Assembly (NCBI RefSeq): GCF_019693215.1 | Contig: NZ_CP081183.1 | Coordinates: 375,226 to 439,225, forward strand | From: Salinarchaeum sp. IM2453 | GTDB taxonomy: Archaea > Halobacteriota > Halobacteria > Halobacteriales > Salinarchaeaceae | Length of the DNA stretch: 64,000 bases | Direction: 5' to 3' | In this document: in pieces, positions 35,363 to 43,546 of the stretch | Layout of the letters: each line of letters starts with the position of its first letter | Numbering within the stretch: position 1 is the stretch's first letter | The notes under the pieces: generated by a model | What the model was told of the DNA's origin: nothing | What the model saw: the letters and a program-made list of their open reading frames with translations, nothing else | The model's database searches: none | Position numbers and translations under genes: made by a program

Positions 35363-35480
35363 TCAAGGCAACAAACTGCAGTGACAATCAGTTTATATGC
35401 AAAATCTTGTGAATAAATCGCATGCAGGCTAGCGATTCTGGATCACAATCCTTAACTACTGCACACGGTTACATTATAGT

Positions 35481-35555
<75 letters not shown>

Positions 35556-35570
35556 TTCTCTATTTTTCTA
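35556..35570 (+). terminator. T-rich terminator after initiator tRNA
   Basis: TTCTCTATTTTTCTA directly follows the tRNA 3' end; archaeal RNA polymerase terminates at such oligo-T tracts. Confidence 0.5.
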
Positions 35571-35808: not shown

Positions 35809-37665
35809 ATGGCAGACAGTGACGATTCTTCTTTACAGCGACGATCATTCTTGGCAATTGCTGGTGGAACATCGGCAGCAGCACTCGCTGGATGTACTGA
35901 CCTATTTGACGATGATGAAGAACCAGAAGGGTGGGAGACATGGGACCACCCAGACAATGTACAGAAAGCTCAGGACGCTTGGGAAACAATCGAACAGAAC
36001 ACTGGCCCGACTGAGGAAGAACAAGACGCACGTGCTGAAGCTCACGTAGAGATAGAGGAAGCACGGCGGGATGACATGATCATTCTGCCGTTCTACCACG
36101 GGCTGGAAGAACGGTTTATTCTTCCTGAAGTCGACATTGAACCATTCGGAAGTCTGGGAGAACATCGACAGCGGTTCGATGAGGTTGAAATCGAAGACTC
36201 TGACAGGACAGATAGCGACACACTTGAGCTAATTAATTCAGGGATGAGCACGTTGGATCCGATCGAGTCAACGGACACAGCATCCGGTATTGTCATTAAT
36301 CAGGTCTACGAGAACTTAACTCAATACGAAAACGGAGAAATTGAAGGACTGCAGGGACAACTAGCAGAAGACTGGGATATTAGTGACGACGGGGAGACTT
36401 ATACGTTCCACCTGAAGGAGGATGTTGAGTTCCACAATGGAGAAGAATTGACTGCTGATGACTTTGTGTATTCATTCCGACGGCTCGCTGAGTCTGACAA
36501 CAGTCAGCGAGCGAGCTTCATGTTAAACTCTGAGAATCTTGCTATTGAGTATGACGAAGATGAAGATGGCGGGGTAGTTCCAGACAGTATTGGTGTAGAA
36601 GCTGAAGATGACCATACACTTGTGGTTGAACTTCGTGAGGCAACGCCAGCGGCACTTGACATTCTCGCATATGATGCATTTGCTGCCATCCCAGAGGGCT
36701 ATGTGGGCGACATTGAGGGGTATGACGGTGAGATGGATCAGGAGGACTTCTCTACAGAAGAGATGATTGGAACCGGTCCGTTCGAGTTTGTTGAGTGGAC
36801 ATCTGGAGAGGATGTTGAAGTCGAGCGGTTTGATGATTACTACGAAGGGGCTGCGAGTATTGAAACTGTACACTGGGAAATTGTTGAATCAGATTCTACT
36901 GTAAATACAAGAATTGAGGAAGGGAATGTCGATGTATTTACAATCCCAATTCCATTCTATGAGCCAGATAAAGTAGAAGTAGATGACACAGATGATCTTG
37001 GCAGGGAACTTGGCACATATGATCACGACAATCTAGGAGAGATTGATTATGTCAGTGTTGGAACGCTCAGCACATATTATATCGGATTCAATGCACGGCA
37101 TGTGCCACTTCCAGTTCGGGAGGCTGTTGCACATGTGACAGACCACGAAAGTTTCATTGAAGACATATTCAAAGGACGTGGAGTACCAGCATTTAGCTTT
37201 ACACCACCATCAATGTGGGAGGAAGAGTTTGGAGATGTAACATCATACGATGATTTTGCGGAGAACTTCCCATACAGCAAAAATGACAACGACAGAGACG
37301 CTGCAGAAGAAGTCCTTGAGGAAGCTGGGTATACCGACGACGATCCATTTGAGGTCACGATGACAACGTACGATGACGAAGCATTCCAAGAGTTCGGTCG
37401 ATCAGTTCGTGACCGGCTTGAGGGCATTGGTGTTGATATGGATCTGCGTGAAACGGAATTCAATATTCTGATTGGCGACGGCGAAGATGGAGACTTAGAG
37501 ATATTTACGCTTGGATGGATCTGGAGCTGGAATGACCCTATCTACGGTCATTTCGGATTTGAGCCTGAGAACACAGATACGTCACTGATACCAACTGAAG
37601 CAGATGGATACTATCTAGATTGGCAGAAGGCAGCGGAAGGAGTCGTCGAGGACGAAAACGAATAA
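35809..37665 (+). CDS. dppA: Dipeptide/oligopeptide ABC transporter substrate-binding lipoprotein, apparently circularly permuted
   Basis: 618 aa. It has a Tat signal (RRSFLAIAGG) and lipobox LAGC with Cys29, so it is exported folded and lipid-anchored. Residues about 42-122 (QKAQDAWETIEQNTGPTEE, EAHVEIEEARRDDMIILPFYHGLEERF, VDIEPFGSLGEHRQ) look like the C-terminal block of haloarchaeal family members, placed here at the front. The usual N-terminal part (LINSGMSTLDPIESTDTASG) follows at 140. The protein then runs through EDVEFHNGEELTADDFVYSF and ends at YYLDWQKAAEGVV, just where that C-terminal block would normally begin. It is the first gene of the operon with the two permeases and two ATPases. 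Confidence 0.88.
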   Translation: MADSDDSSLQRRSFLAIAGGTSAAALAGCTDLFDDDEEPEGWETWDHPDNVQKAQDAWETIEQNTGPTEEEQDARAEAHVEIEEARRDDMIILPFYHGLEERFILPEVDIEPFGSLGEHRQRFDEVEIEDSDRTDSDTLELINSGMSTLDPIESTDTASGIVINQVYENLTQYENGEIEGLQGQLAEDWDISDDGETYTFHLKEDVEFHNGEELTADDFVYSFRRLAESDNSQRASFMLNSENLAIEYDEDEDGGVVPDSIGVEAEDDHTLVVELREATPAALDILAYDAFAAIPEGYVGDIEGYDGEMDQEDFSTEEMIGTGPFEFVEWTSGEDVEVERFDDYYEGAASIETVHWEIVESDSTVNTRIEEGNVDVFTIPIPFYEPDKVEVDDTDDLGRELGTYDHDNLGEIDYVSVGTLSTYYIGFNARHVPLPVREAVAHVTDHESFIEDIFKGRGVPAFSFTPPSMWEEEFGDVTSYDDFAENFPYSKNDNDRDAAEEVLEEAGYTDDDPFEVTMTTYDDEAFQEFGRSVRDRLEGIGVDMDLRETEFNILIGDGEDGDLEIFTLGWIWSWNDPIYGHFGFEPENTDTSLIPTEADGYYLDWQKAAEGVVEDENE

Positions 37666-37777: not shown

Positions 37778-38836
37778 ATGAGCCGATGGCGATATTTTCT
37801 TAAGCGCTTGTTGCTATCAATCCCAATTCTGTTTCTTGTCGCCACCATTCTGTTTGTCATTCTCCGGCTAGGACCACTTGACCCGGTTGCTGCTATTCTT
37901 GGTCCTGATGCCGGAGGTGGCGATGCAGCAGAAATACGTGAATCACTTGGACTGAATGAGCCGCTGTGGACCCAGTATTACGAGTTTATGGTAAACCTCG
38001 TAACCTTTGAAGGCCAGTCGTGGGTGATCCAGCCAGGTACGTCCGTACAAGCAATGATTGCGGACTTCGCACCACGGACAATTTGGCTTGGATTCTGGGC
38101 AATTCTCTTGCCATTATTTATTGGAATTCCCCTCGGGTTCTACGCTGGACTTCGTCCAAATAGCTTTGGAGATTACGTTGCGTCCTTTGGTGGAATTGTG
38201 TGGCTTGCAATGCCAAACTTTTGGCTGGCAATTATAATTATCGGACTTCTTGTGTCAACCCAAAACGGTGCTGGACCGCTTGGATTTGATTGGTATACGT
38301 TTGGACCGGAGATTGACTCAGTTGTTACAGCACCGCCATTGAACTTTGTCGATGAGTGGGTCTCACTCTGGTTTATTTCAATACCAATAGCATTTAATTT
38401 TGGCACGATTGCAGAAGCGATTAAGATCATATTACCACCAGCATTGGTACTGGGATCGGCTTCAATGGCAACAGAGTTACGTATTGGACGAACCGCAATT
38501 CTTGAAACAATCAACTCGAATTACGTCGAAACTGCGAAGGCAAAAGGACTGTCTGATCGAGTTATTGTCTGGAAGCATGTATTTCGAAATGCACTGATTC
38601 CATTGATTCCAGTGATCTCTAATGAAGCATTCCTGCTGCTTGGAGGATCTGTAATTGTTGAAGTAGTCTTCGGTATCAATGGAATTGGTTGGTTGTTCTT
38701 CGAATCAGCAGTCGATGGAGACCTTCCACTTGCAGGGTCACTATTATTCCTGTTTGCAATAATTATTGTGCTTGTTAATATTCTCCAAGATCTTCTCTAT
38801 ACAATTCTTGATCCACGAGTAGGGTTGAACCAATGA
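37778..38836 (+). CDS. dppB: Peptide ABC transporter permease (DppB type)
   Basis: 352 aa. The N-terminal helix and PLDPVAAILGPDAGG..AAEIRESLGLNEPLWTQYYEFM are typical of DppB/OppB. The coupling loop reads ATELRIGRTAILETINSNYVETAKAKGLSDRVIVWKHVFRNALIPLIPV, the EAA motif that contacts the ATPase. There are six or so helices. It overlaps the next permease by 4 bases. Confidence 0.93.
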   Translation: MSRWRYFLKRLLLSIPILFLVATILFVILRLGPLDPVAAILGPDAGGGDAAEIRESLGLNEPLWTQYYEFMVNLVTFEGQSWVIQPGTSVQAMIADFAPRTIWLGFWAILLPLFIGIPLGFYAGLRPNSFGDYVASFGGIVWLAMPNFWLAIIIIGLLVSTQNGAGPLGFDWYTFGPEIDSVVTAPPLNFVDEWVSLWFISIPIAFNFGTIAEAIKIILPPALVLGSASMATELRIGRTAILETINSNYVETAKAKGLSDRVIVWKHVFRNALIPLIPVISNEAFLLLGGSVIVEVVFGINGIGWLFFESAVDGDLPLAGSLLFLFAIIIVLVNILQDLLYTILDPRVGLNQ

Positions 38837-40632
38837 CGATGGAAACAGCTGACACCAAGACATTTCGCGAACGTATCGCTGAGAACCCTCGGCCAGCAGT
38901 AATATGGGGAAGTGTGCTCGGGGTTTTGGTTCTCCTTGAGTTGGGCCATTACGCTGCTGGTGCTCTCTGGTTTGGGGGAGCGATTGGGACTGCTCTCTCC
39001 GGGATAGCGAGCATCCCATGGTTTGTGGGAGGAAATATTAATAGTGTAGTCATTGACTCGTTTGAATCAATTGGAGTCGATGCTGAAATTGCGGCTATAC
39101 TTGGGGTGACTGCCGGCATCATAGCCATCGGAATAACGGCCGTAATATTATTGTATATCGCTGCAGCAATCATACATCAGATTACGGACTATTCGCTCGT
39201 GGGTCAGTTTGGTGTCGAAAAAGGTAGTCAAATCTCAATACTCGGACGAGAAATAGTGATAACAGAACCAGTCAAAAAGCGATTAGAGCGAATTGTCGGA
39301 GCAGGAATACTAGCTGTTGTGACAGGCTTGCTGTTAGTACCACCAGTCGCAGCAGTTGTAGACATTATTTTGGGCACAATGCGCAATGCCATCAGCTGGG
39401 TAGCATCACTCCCCCATCTAACGGATCCAAGTCTTATTTCCAATGATGGATATCACGGACCCAACGGTTGGGAAAATACGTTCCTTGGACTCAGTGCAGC
39501 ACTTGCATGGTTTATTCGTGTAGTCGTTGTATATGCATACGCGCTATTCTTACTGTACTGGCTCTGGCGAGGATACAAGATATTCAAGAATAACTATCGA
39601 GTCGCTGACTGGACACCGACTGATGACTGGATACGTCGGTTTAGCACCCACTCATGGGGAATATTTGGGTTCGTGACGATATTTATCTTCGTCATAATGG
39701 CAGGTTGGGCACCATCTCTTGCGACATATCCAATCAGTCATAATATCTATTCGCCTTTCGATTACCATATTCAGTACTGGGATGGACAAGGCGTTGAAAC
39801 AATCAGTCACGGGGAAGCAAACGATAATACCCGTTCCGATGGAGGGGAGTCGACAGTTGGACCGTTGAGCTACGATCAATATGACCGATGGGCTCCAATG
39901 GGCACAGCAAGCGGTGGACAGGACCTGTGGACATTCGTTGTCTACGGTGCCCGAACGTCGCTGATCATTGGTCTAACAGCCATCATCCTCGGTGGGTTGA
40001 TTGCGCTTACGCTCTCGATGATTACAGCATATTACAAAGGGATCGTTGATACGCTAACAGTTGTTGCGACTGATACGATCATCTCAATTCCGGCGTTCCT
40101 GTTTGCATTGCTCCTACTGGTGGTATTCGGAGATGCAAACCACCCAATCGCCGAACCGCTTGATGGTGGAATACTACTTGCATTAGCATTTGCATTTGTT
40201 TACTGGCCAGGGATGTGGCGAGCAATTCGTGGGCCATCCTTGCAAGTTGCCGAGCAAGAATGGGTCGACGCAGCGAAGAGTTACGGTCAGAACCCATTTG
40301 TGATAATGCGAAAGCACATGGTCCCCTACATTGCCGGGTATTTGATGATCTATGCATCGTTGCTCCTTGGGAGCATTATCATTGCAACAGCGGCACTTTC
40401 ATATCTTGGAATCGGAGTTAGTCACCCAACTGCAGAGTGGGGACGACTTATCAGTGAAGGAGAAGTCTACATTAACACGAATTCATGGCATGTCGCCACG
40501 CTACCTGGAATTATGATTGTGCTCATCGTGACTGGATTCAACGCCCTCGGTGATGGAATTCGAGACGCGATCGATCCAGAAAGCAACATTGAGTCAGGTG
40601 AGGGTGGTGCCGTTGGAGGAGGTGGTGCATAA
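38833..40632 (+). CDS. dppC: Peptide ABC transporter permease (DppC type) with long N-terminal extension
   Basis: 599 aa; DppC proteins are usually about 300-350. The permease core is in the last 260 residues, with DLWTFVVYGARTSLIIGLTAIIL and the EAA loop EQEWVDAAKSYGQNPFVIMRKHMVPYIAGYLMIY. The first 330 or so residues add about six extra hydrophobic helices, including LVLLELGHYAAGALWFGGAIG and LAAALAWFIRVVVVYAYALFLLYWLWRG. A soluble loop facing the binding protein follows (YDQYDRWAPMGTASGG). Extended DppC proteins occur in haloarchaea; the role of the extension is unknown. Confidence 0.9.
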   Translation: MTMETADTKTFRERIAENPRPAVIWGSVLGVLVLLELGHYAAGALWFGGAIGTALSGIASIPWFVGGNINSVVIDSFESIGVDAEIAAILGVTAGIIAIGITAVILLYIAAAIIHQITDYSLVGQFGVEKGSQISILGREIVITEPVKKRLERIVGAGILAVVTGLLLVPPVAAVVDIILGTMRNAISWVASLPHLTDPSLISNDGYHGPNGWENTFLGLSAALAWFIRVVVVYAYALFLLYWLWRGYKIFKNNYRVADWTPTDDWIRRFSTHSWGIFGFVTIFIFVIMAGWAPSLATYPISHNIYSPFDYHIQYWDGQGVETISHGEANDNTRSDGGESTVGPLSYDQYDRWAPMGTASGGQDLWTFVVYGARTSLIIGLTAIILGGLIALTLSMITAYYKGIVDTLTVVATDTIISIPAFLFALLLLVVFGDANHPIAEPLDGGILLALAFAFVYWPGMWRAIRGPSLQVAEQEWVDAAKSYGQNPFVIMRKHMVPYIAGYLMIYASLLLGSIIIATAALSYLGIGVSHPTAEWGRLISEGEVYINTNSWHVATLPGIMIVLIVTGFNALGDGIRDAIDPESNIESGEGGAVGGGGA

Positions 40633-41972
40633 TGGCAACAACACAAGCAACTGATGATATGATGACGGCCGAAAAAGATATTGTACAGGTTAGAAACCTC
40701 CAGACAGCATTTTTCACGGATAAAGAGACAATCCGAGCGGTCGACGGAATTTCATTTGATCTCACTTCTGGAAAGACCATAGGAATTGTTGGAGAAAGTG
40801 GGTCAGGAAAAAGTGTCACCGCTCGTTCCCTGATGGGGTTAGTTGATGCTCCTGGGCGGGTACTCCAAGGAAGTAGTATTCAATTCCACAAGTTGGAGAC
40901 GGTCCAAGCATTCGCAGACTCATTTTCACGACGGGCCGTCGATATAACGGAGCTTGAAGCTGAGTATGACGCAGAGACGATATTCGAAGAAGAAGTCAAT
41001 GCAACACCAGAAAGCCTTGGATACGAATCTATCGAGGAAATTGGACTTGCAGAGCTAGCTGCCCATGACTATCTTGATGATTTAGGAATCGTAGATTCCA
41101 GTGATTGTATATTCATTACAGAAGGGTCAAAGGAGCGTCCAGAAGCAGGATTTATCGAACTTAGCCGGATCAGTGGGAAAGCACAGCGAAAAATGCGAGG
41201 AAAGCAGATTGCAATGGTGTTCCAAGATCCATTGACAAGTCTGAACCCCGTCTATACAGTCGGTAACCAGATTAAAGAGGCACTCCGCTTGCATCAGGGA
41301 CTAACAGGGAGTGCAGCAGATGAAAAGGCAATCGATCTACTGGACTCCGTTGGAATTCCTGATGCACGGCGGCGGCTGACAGAATATCCACACCAATTCT
41401 CCGGTGGCATGCGACAACGAGCAGTTATTGCGATGGCACTTGCTTGTGATCCGGAGGTTTTGATCGCTGATGAGCCAACAACAGCACTTGATGTTACAAT
41501 TCAGGCGCAGATTCTAAACCTACTAGAAGAACTGCAAGAGTCAAGAGACCTAGCAGTAATGTTCATCACCCACGATATGGGCGTGATTGCTGAAATCTCT
41601 GACCGCGTTAATGTCATGTACGCCGGAGAAGTTGTAGAATCGGCAAACGTTGAGACACTGTTTGAAAATCCAAAGCACCCGTACACGAGAGGATTGCTCA
41701 ATTCAATCCCAGCACGGCAAACCGGTGATCGTCTAAGCACAATCGAAGGGAGCGTGCCAACACCGAACGAGCCAGCGCAATATTGTCGGTTTGCTCCACG
41801 GTGTCCAAAAGCATTCGATGAATGTGAAAAAGTCGCTCCAGTTCCAGTAGATGTCAACGAAGAAAGTACAGACCATAGCGCAGCATGCCTCTTGTATCCA
41901 GAGCAGCTATCGAAAGGTGCAGCTGTAGAACACCATCAGAGTCGGCAGAAAAAACAAGGTGATAACCAATGA
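40632..41972 (+). CDS. dppD: Peptide ABC transporter ATPase (DppD type) with internal insertion
   Basis: 446 aa. Walker A is GESGSGKSVTARSLMGL, near residue 55. The Q-loop MVFQDPLTSLNPVYTVG comes only near residue 195. About 80-90 extra residues (acidic, ITELEAEYDAETIFEEE... to IFITEGSKERPEAG) lie between. The signature FSGGMRQRAVIAMALACDPEVLIADEPTTALD follows, then the C-terminal oligopeptide domain with its Cys set (YCRFAPRCPKAFDECEKV, AAC). It overlaps its neighbours by 1-4 bases. Confidence 0.92.
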   Translation: MATTQATDDMMTAEKDIVQVRNLQTAFFTDKETIRAVDGISFDLTSGKTIGIVGESGSGKSVTARSLMGLVDAPGRVLQGSSIQFHKLETVQAFADSFSRRAVDITELEAEYDAETIFEEEVNATPESLGYESIEEIGLAELAAHDYLDDLGIVDSSDCIFITEGSKERPEAGFIELSRISGKAQRKMRGKQIAMVFQDPLTSLNPVYTVGNQIKEALRLHQGLTGSAADEKAIDLLDSVGIPDARRRLTEYPHQFSGGMRQRAVIAMALACDPEVLIADEPTTALDVTIQAQILNLLEELQESRDLAVMFITHDMGVIAEISDRVNVMYAGEVVESANVETLFENPKHPYTRGLLNSIPARQTGDRLSTIEGSVPTPNEPAQYCRFAPRCPKAFDECEKVAPVPVDVNEESTDHSAACLLYPEQLSKGAAVEHHQSRQKKQGDNQ

Positions 41973-43546
41973 GCCGAGAAGTAACTAAGCCCAGAGATGA
42001 AAAAAGAGAGGACGAAGATGTGCTTGTACAGGTTCGCAATCTAAAAACATACTACGACGACAGTGGTCTCCTTGATGGAACTCCGCCGGTGAAGGCAGTT
42101 GACGGTGTTTCATTTGACATCAAAAAAGGAGAAACACTTGGGCTTGTCGGAGAGTCAGGCTGTGGAAAAACAACGTTAGGCCGCACACTACTGCAGTTAG
42201 AGGATGCAACTGCAGGTGAAATAAAGTTTGACGGAACCGATATAACGACGCTGAGAGGTGACGAAATCAAGCAATGGCGACGCAACGCACAGATGGTCTT
42301 CCAAGACCCAGATTCAAGTCTCAATGATCGAATGACTGTTGGTGAGATCATTAGAGAGCCGCTTGATGTGTATGACTGGAAAAGCAAGAAAGAACGTCGT
42401 GAGCGTGTAAAGGAGCTACTTGACACCGTTGGGTTAAAACAGGAACACTACTTCCGATATCCACACCAATTTTCTGGGGGTCAAAGACAGCGAATTGGGA
42501 TCGCACGGACCTTGACGCTGGAGCCAGACTTCATTGTGCTTGATGAGCCGGTTTCTGCCCTTGATGTATCGGTGCAGGCCGAGATTCTAAATCTTCTCAA
42601 AGATCTACAGGACGAGTTTGATCTGACATATCTCTTTATCGCACACGATCTTTCAGTTGTAAAGCACATCTCTGATCGAGTTGCAGTAATGTATCTCGGA
42701 AACGTGATGGAAATCGGTCCAGTTGATGAAATCTTCGAGGATCCAGCACATCCCTATACACACTCATTGCTGTCAGCAATTCCACGTCCTGACCCAACGG
42801 CTGAAAGCAACCGGATTACACTCCGAGGGACACCCCCAAGCCCACGATATCCGCCAAATGGATGTCCATTCAGCGACCGATGCCCAGCCCGAATTAGACC
42901 AAAGGAGTACAAAGATGTTGATGAGGACCTATGGAATAAAATCAGCATTCTTTGGACAGTAATCAAAGAGCGGAACCGCGCTGATCGGACAGTTACAGAG
43001 CGGATTAAAGAGTTACTTGGTGGAAAGACCCGGTTTGGGTCAATTGATGAGATTTATGAAGAGGTGTTTGACGGACGAGACATGCCTGAGAAGGTTGCTA
43101 CAGTGCTTGATGAAGTTGCAGAGTACGTTCGAGATCACGAAGAACAGAAAGCACTTGATCTACTGAACCAAGAGTTTGGTAGTATCTGTGATCGTTTTAA
43201 AGACTCTTGGACTCGAAACGTTGTCTCTGAGATTGAAACACAGGATAGCATCCAGAAGTCGATCGCGGTTTTGCTAGAAGAAACGGATGGGATTTATGAT
43301 GATCTTGAAGAGCAGGAGGCGAAGTCGATTGTTGAAGATGTACAACGACACCTAGAAAATGAACAAAGGGAACAAGCAGTCAAAACGGTGGCTGAAGCCG
43401 TTGGTGGAGCATACGATCCGATGACAGAAGAGGAGATCAACACACCTCGCCTGCATAATATCGGAGACAAAGGTCGAAAGAGTATGTGTCATCGCCATCT
43501 CTCCCGATATCGGGATCCAGATGAAGTACTGGAAGAACGTTACTAA
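41969..43546 (+). CDS. dppF: Peptide ABC transporter ATPase (DppF type) with long C-terminal insertion
   Basis: 525 aa versus the usual 320-350. Walker A GESGCGKTTLGRTLL, Q-loop MVFQDPDSSLNDRMTVG, signature FSGGQRQRIGIARTLTLEPDFIVLDEPVSALD and His-switch IAHDLSVV are all intact. The C-terminal oligopeptide domain starts (GCPFSDRCPARI) and is then interrupted by about 190 helical, acidic residues. The final conserved SMCHRHLSRY comes only at the end, so the Cys cluster is split by the insert. Confidence 0.9.
   Translation: MSREVTKPRDEKREDEDVLVQVRNLKTYYDDSGLLDGTPPVKAVDGVSFDIKKGETLGLVGESGCGKTTLGRTLLQLEDATAGEIKFDGTDITTLRGDEIKQWRRNAQMVFQDPDSSLNDRMTVGEIIREPLDVYDWKSKKERRERVKELLDTVGLKQEHYFRYPHQFSGGQRQRIGIARTLTLEPDFIVLDEPVSALDVSVQAEILNLLKDLQDEFDLTYLFIAHDLSVVKHISDRVAVMYLGNVMEIGPVDEIFEDPAHPYTHSLLSAIPRPDPTAESNRITLRGTPPSPRYPPNGCPFSDRCPARIRPKEYKDVDEDLWNKISILWTVIKERNRADRTVTERIKELLGGKTRFGSIDEIYEEVFDGRDMPEKVATVLDEVAEYVRDHEEQKALDLLNQEFGSICDRFKDSWTRNVVSEIETQDSIQKSIAVLLEETDGIYDDLEEQEAKSIVEDVQRHLENEQREQAVKTVAEAVGGAYDPMTEEEINTPRLHNIGDKGRKSMCHRHLSRYRDPDEVLEERY

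Follow-up and report, generated by a model that had tools for sequence, protein, structure and literature searches.

The closest described relatives of the protein analysed here are the substrate-binding proteins of cluster C, or family 5 (OppA, DppA, AppA; PF00496), whose canonical chains end in a block that we call block or module A. Natural circular permutations are usually taken to be ancient, to have happened once and to separate distantly related proteins. In the cluster C protein AliD, lobe 2 spans residues 297-582, and lobe 1 is made of residues 29-296 plus the 35 residues that end the chain (583-617), which places both termini in lobe 1 (PMC11192437). A natural circularly permuted substrate-binding lipoprotein is known from Treponema pallidum (Tp0684, MglB-2), for which a crystal structure and glucose binding have been shown and whose authors proposed a 'cluster Bc' and suggested a tie to membrane anchoring (PMC4990184). 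MglB-2 is a sugar-binding protein of cluster B; its permuted segment is C-terminal, poorly conserved and possibly derived from another gene, and the permutation adds a fourth hinge crossing (PMC4990184). A first-pass annotation of the DNA described here had stated that no permuted DppA/OppA was known. In the openly accessible literature we likewise found no report of a permuted cluster C protein (OppA/DppA) and nothing relevant on permuted dipeptide-binding proteins or on permutation in haloarchaea; within that coverage the statement holds for cluster C, with MglB-2 as a known permuted binding protein in cluster B.

The window, by which we mean the whole 64,000-nucleotide stretch of DNA that was analysed, encodes a putative binding protein with the following parts:

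35809-37665, + strand: ORF of a 618 aa lipoprotein, a single open frame
35809-35895, + strand: signal peptide containing an RR motif and a lipobox whose last residue is Cys29 (read from the sequence; a weak Pfam TAT_signal match lies below the cut-off)
35896-35955, + strand: acidic linker from the lipobox Cys to module A, residues 30-49 (low confidence in AlphaFold2)
35956-36198, + strand: module A, residues 50-130, N-terminal here but closing the canonical relatives (module HMM, 110 bits)
36199-36216, + strand: fused A/B junction, old C-terminus (A) onto old N-terminus (B), with few residues between the modules in A-B-C rows
36217-37266, + strand: module B, residues 137-486, the ordinary N-terminal part of a family-5 binding protein (module HMM, 484 bits)
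37267-37641, + strand: module C, residues 487-611, the new C-terminal region, containing YYLDWQ (module HMM, 158 bits; junction comparison)

The protein is a family-5 (Opp/Dpp, cluster C) substrate-binding lipoprotein and a permuted homologue with the chain order A-B-C. Its lipobox reads LAGC29 and its RR motif is Tat-like; the RR and the lipobox GC are invariant in 40 A-B-C relatives. PF00496 matches residues 181-579 only (E=6.5e-74; 249.7 bits against a cut-off of 32.4). Because the cut-offs of the NCBIfam equivalogs are not reached (121 of 947 bits for NF011684, 90 of 1005 bits for NF043070), we withhold the name OppA or DppA, and a canonical relative likewise falls far below the OppA and DppA equivalog cut-offs. 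With other cluster C members the protein shares homology over modules B and C and the setting of a lipoprotein in an OppBCDF operon, but its chain opens with the block found at the end of canonical members, and its termini and lipid anchor have moved. Both by sequence and by fold, its matches belong to cluster C, which places it outside cluster Bc. The window genome is one contig of 2.66 Mb and contains one paralogue of the protein, distant at 30% identity; a block search found no second copy of block A in it.

The first-pass annotation had proposed a circular permutation in which the usual C-terminal block occupies residues 42-122 and the ordinary N-terminal region follows from residue 140. 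All motifs quoted for residues 42-122 are present and the front position of the block is borne out, with limits refined to 50-130 by the module HMMs; an ordinary N-terminal region does follow, starting at 137. As also claimed, the chain ends just past the module that normally precedes block A. Modules A, B and C were defined on the canonical haloarchaeal protein L016 (G051), which has the same modules and operon as the window protein but the order B-C-A and ordinary topology, and HMMs were built iteratively and run over all fetched genes. Order labels are taken from these HMMs; labels based on BLAST only had miscalled a few canonical genes as A-B-C.

In searches of 59 genomes with the whole protein, many relatives gave two HSPs in swapped order, and matches to ordinary family members were split and swapped rather than collinear over the whole protein. 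In L016, for example, subject positions 245-723 align with query positions 130-608, followed by 706-805 with 30-130. Over the B-C stretch L016 and similar relatives are 53-55% identical to the window protein, and A-B-C relatives in many other genomes are collinear with it over their full length. Searched by itself, block A hits canonical relatives at their C-terminal end, with identities reaching 56% (best E=7e-26, in G051). This result, together with the swapped two-HSP matches of the whole protein, excludes chance resemblance of the block, and the homology to the canonical C-terminus rules out an unrelated N-terminal domain. The module HMMs recovered 54 rows in the order B-C-A, 40 in A-B-C and 13 in C-A-B, a few rows being one gene fetched twice. 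All three cyclic orders are therefore present among the fetched genes and no non-cyclic order was found; in 16 distant relatives only modules B and C were recognised.

AlphaFold2 was run on 40 A-B-C proteins and on L016. The window model (pLDDT 85.0, pTM 0.81) is comparable to that of L016 (pLDDT 86.6, pTM 0.82), with values of 83-95 in the module A blocks and below 50 across residues 1-47. The module A elements H50-63, H69-89 and E92-104 have the same lengths as H540-553, H558-578 and E581-593 of L016, and 510 of 548 positions (93.1%) have the same predicted secondary structure when the chains are compared in rotated register, against 30-39% when they are compared collinearly. Foldseek places both models onto OppA/DppA structures, the best matches of the window model being OppA entries (E about 1e-29). 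Among the best 50 alignments, those of the window model span approximately 450-535 columns and those of the canonical model approximately 560-600, a difference that would follow if block A of the permuted model is out of reach for an aligner that works sequentially; TM-scores also depend on open versus closed states. A profile built from canonical proteins aligns collinearly to the solved structure 6npo across profile positions 26-587. Module A alone, being too short, gave no significant match to solved structures (best relevant E=1.1, to the C-terminus of 2wok). The predictions support retention of the two-lobed family-5 fold, and secondary structure and model confidence suggest that module A would dock in the usual C-terminal position. 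Module order, module-by-module homology, the rotated secondary structure and the absence of non-cyclic orders together support the reading of the window gene as a natural circular permutation.

The cut points can be read from the junctions. After the acidic linker, A-B-C chains begin at a helix such as NVQKAQDAW, and they end soon after YYLDWQ, the point in module C at which the canonical chain continues into A; canonical genes are uninterrupted there, e.g. YYLDWHEADSDAAQQAQDAW. C-A-B chains have a linker, then module C from YPYG, and end a few residues past PGGxxxY. The A-to-B linker is only a few residues long in both permuted orders. By analogy with the domain limits of AliD, both cuts probably lie in lobe 2. 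The former C-terminal block would then comprise a pair of lobe-2 helices, the strand that returns through the hinge and the final piece of lobe 1. It now stands behind the lipobox, fused through a short stretch of residues to the former N-terminus, and the new chain end would lie in a lobe-2 loop. Since both cuts would lie in lobe 2, two changes are predicted: the lipid anchor would shift from lobe 1 to lobe 2, and lobe 1 would become contiguous and lobe 2 split. The two hinge crossings would be kept and the moved segment is clearly homologous, in contrast to MglB-2.

The binding-protein gene is followed by genes of an Opp/Dpp-type ABC importer:

37778-38836, + strand: OppB-type permease (PF00528, E=9.5e-31)
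38833-40632, + strand: OppC-type permease of 599 aa with a long N-terminal extension (PF00528, E=2.8e-23 at residues 392-582; PF12911 at 261-304)
40632-41972, + strand: OppD-type ATPase (PF00005 and PF08352)
41969-43546, + strand: OppF-type ATPase (PF00005 and PF08352)

Of the 20 neighbourhoods read, 18 held an operon of the type SBP-OppB-OppC-OppD-OppF, and such operons occur with all three module orders; the other two, both canonical (G359, G018), showed no such transporter genes within the fetched stretch. The simplest reading is that the permuted proteins work with an ordinary transporter. The window protein is predicted to fold into the same two-lobed Venus flytrap, to bind a ligand that would be peptide-like judging by operon type alone, and to hand that ligand over to the ordinary OppBCDF transporter whose genes are adjacent. 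A tRNA-Met gene (35480-35556) lies directly upstream of the operon, with no sharp change in GC content across it. The OppC-type permease carries approximately 260 extra residues ahead of its OppC_N domain, and its length varies from 486 to 599 aa among the operons without correlation to binding-protein order. In the OppF-type ATPase, the oligo_HPY region is followed by a long charged stretch (approximately residues 320-480).

The window genome is not alone in having this arrangement. Across 392 sampled genomes of the taxonomic order, match spans indicate A-B-C in approximately 41 genomes and C-A-B in approximately 28, each in several families, and block A is C-terminal in most relatives. The C-A-B rows of the module HMMs are L138, L139-L142, L146, L150, L153, L157, L159, L160, L162 and L163. 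Phylum-wide samples searched at a strict threshold gave strong matches solely from the same taxonomic order, and a contig scan for relatives returned bacterial ones alone, matched in modules B and C.

In a tree of 107 rotated SBP cores, the C-A-B proteins form one clade (support 99), and 39 A-B-C rows fall into one clade of 43 rows (support 98) together with four canonical rows. The remaining A-B-C gene, L115 (G306:C1:2401000-2404500), is nested among distant canonical genes and is cut in the same loop. It is an independent second A-B-C origin; a single A-B-C clade including L115 is rejected (p=7.7e-47). The pattern is repeated by a tree of OppB+OppC+OppD+OppF from 19 operons, in which C-A-B again forms one clade, G306 groups with the canonical G023 (support 93), G296 stands beside G064 and G367 (support 99) and G051 lies within the A-B-C group. 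Parsimony on the SBP tree requires six changes of order. Module order has thus switched repeatedly in both trees, with C-A-B gained once and A-B-C at least twice. Within this family, proteins that are still recognisable as homologous and that share one type of operon exist in three rotations, with repeated switches between them. This amounts to a natural experiment, which may tell whether the order of folding, the position of the anchor and the continuity of a lobe make a difference to a Venus-flytrap protein and to its transporter.

Two of the canonical genes nested in the main A-B-C clade, L016 (G051) and L096 (G296), could be reversions, i.e. the clade would have gained A-B-C once and rotated back twice. 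One gain and two reversions are the fewest changes for this clade, the transporter genes show the same nesting, and an AU test rejects a clade of the 39 A-B-C rows free of canonical rows, albeit at a moderate p=0.0153. However, the C-to-A junctions of L016 and L096 (YYLDWQAADSENVQKAQ and YYLDWQEEDSEEMQKAA) match canonical genes outside the clade in length and in the DS(E/D) motif, which suits a canonical order retained amid several parallel A-B-C gains. Parsimony favours reversion and the junction motif favours retention, and we consider reversion a serious possibility that falls somewhat short of even chances. Slightly more doubtful still is the broader proposal that chain order is a reversible trait here, rotated forward more than once at the same lobe-2 loop and also rotated back, with the operon intact each time.

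Regarding the origin of the permuted order, the gene could have received its N-terminal block from a different gene and lost its own C-terminal block, as considered for Treponema MglB-2. The oldest event could have been of this kind if donor and recipient were close paralogues. In each permuted gene tested, however, module A has its nearest relatives in the region of the tree that holds those of B and C, or next to it: the modules of L115 are all nearest to canonical genes of the outer clade, those of L096 are all nearest to L143, and no unrelated lineage appears. Because the relatives of module A track those of B and C, rotation of the protein's own block is favoured and capture of a foreign one is improbable. 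Such a rotation plausibly arose by duplication followed by trimming, as the first-pass annotation had suggested, and the route would be an in-frame duplication and subsequent loss of the redundant ends. None of the fetched genes carries block A twice, as an intermediate would, and the flanks up- and downstream of the window gene yielded no remnant of the block, the sole good match being the gene's own coding DGYYLDWQ end.

It is very unlikely that the permuted genes are decaying or non-functional relics: their frames and operons are intact and the lipobox is conserved, and in eight close permuted pairs Ka is well below Ks in module A, as it is in B and C. Purifying selection thus acts on module A of close permuted relatives just as on their modules B and C. 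There is scarcely any probability that the order is an assembly or annotation artefact, such as a mis-join near 36200 that put a foreign or downstream fragment ahead of an ordinary gene, since approximately 40 other genomes from several families share the order, many at 50-60% identity, and errors made independently could not all have hit the same cut point. In addition, the window genome is one contig, the gene is one open frame and close relatives show purifying selection on module A. We are highly confident that the window gene encodes a working, naturally permuted cluster C lipoprotein of an Opp/Dpp-type ABC importer, for which we infer binding, transport and the actual fold.

Relatives matched in two pieces also occur in plasmid records of Halorussus and others. 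These are annotated merely as 'ABC transporter substrate-binding protein', a plain label that conceals chain topology.
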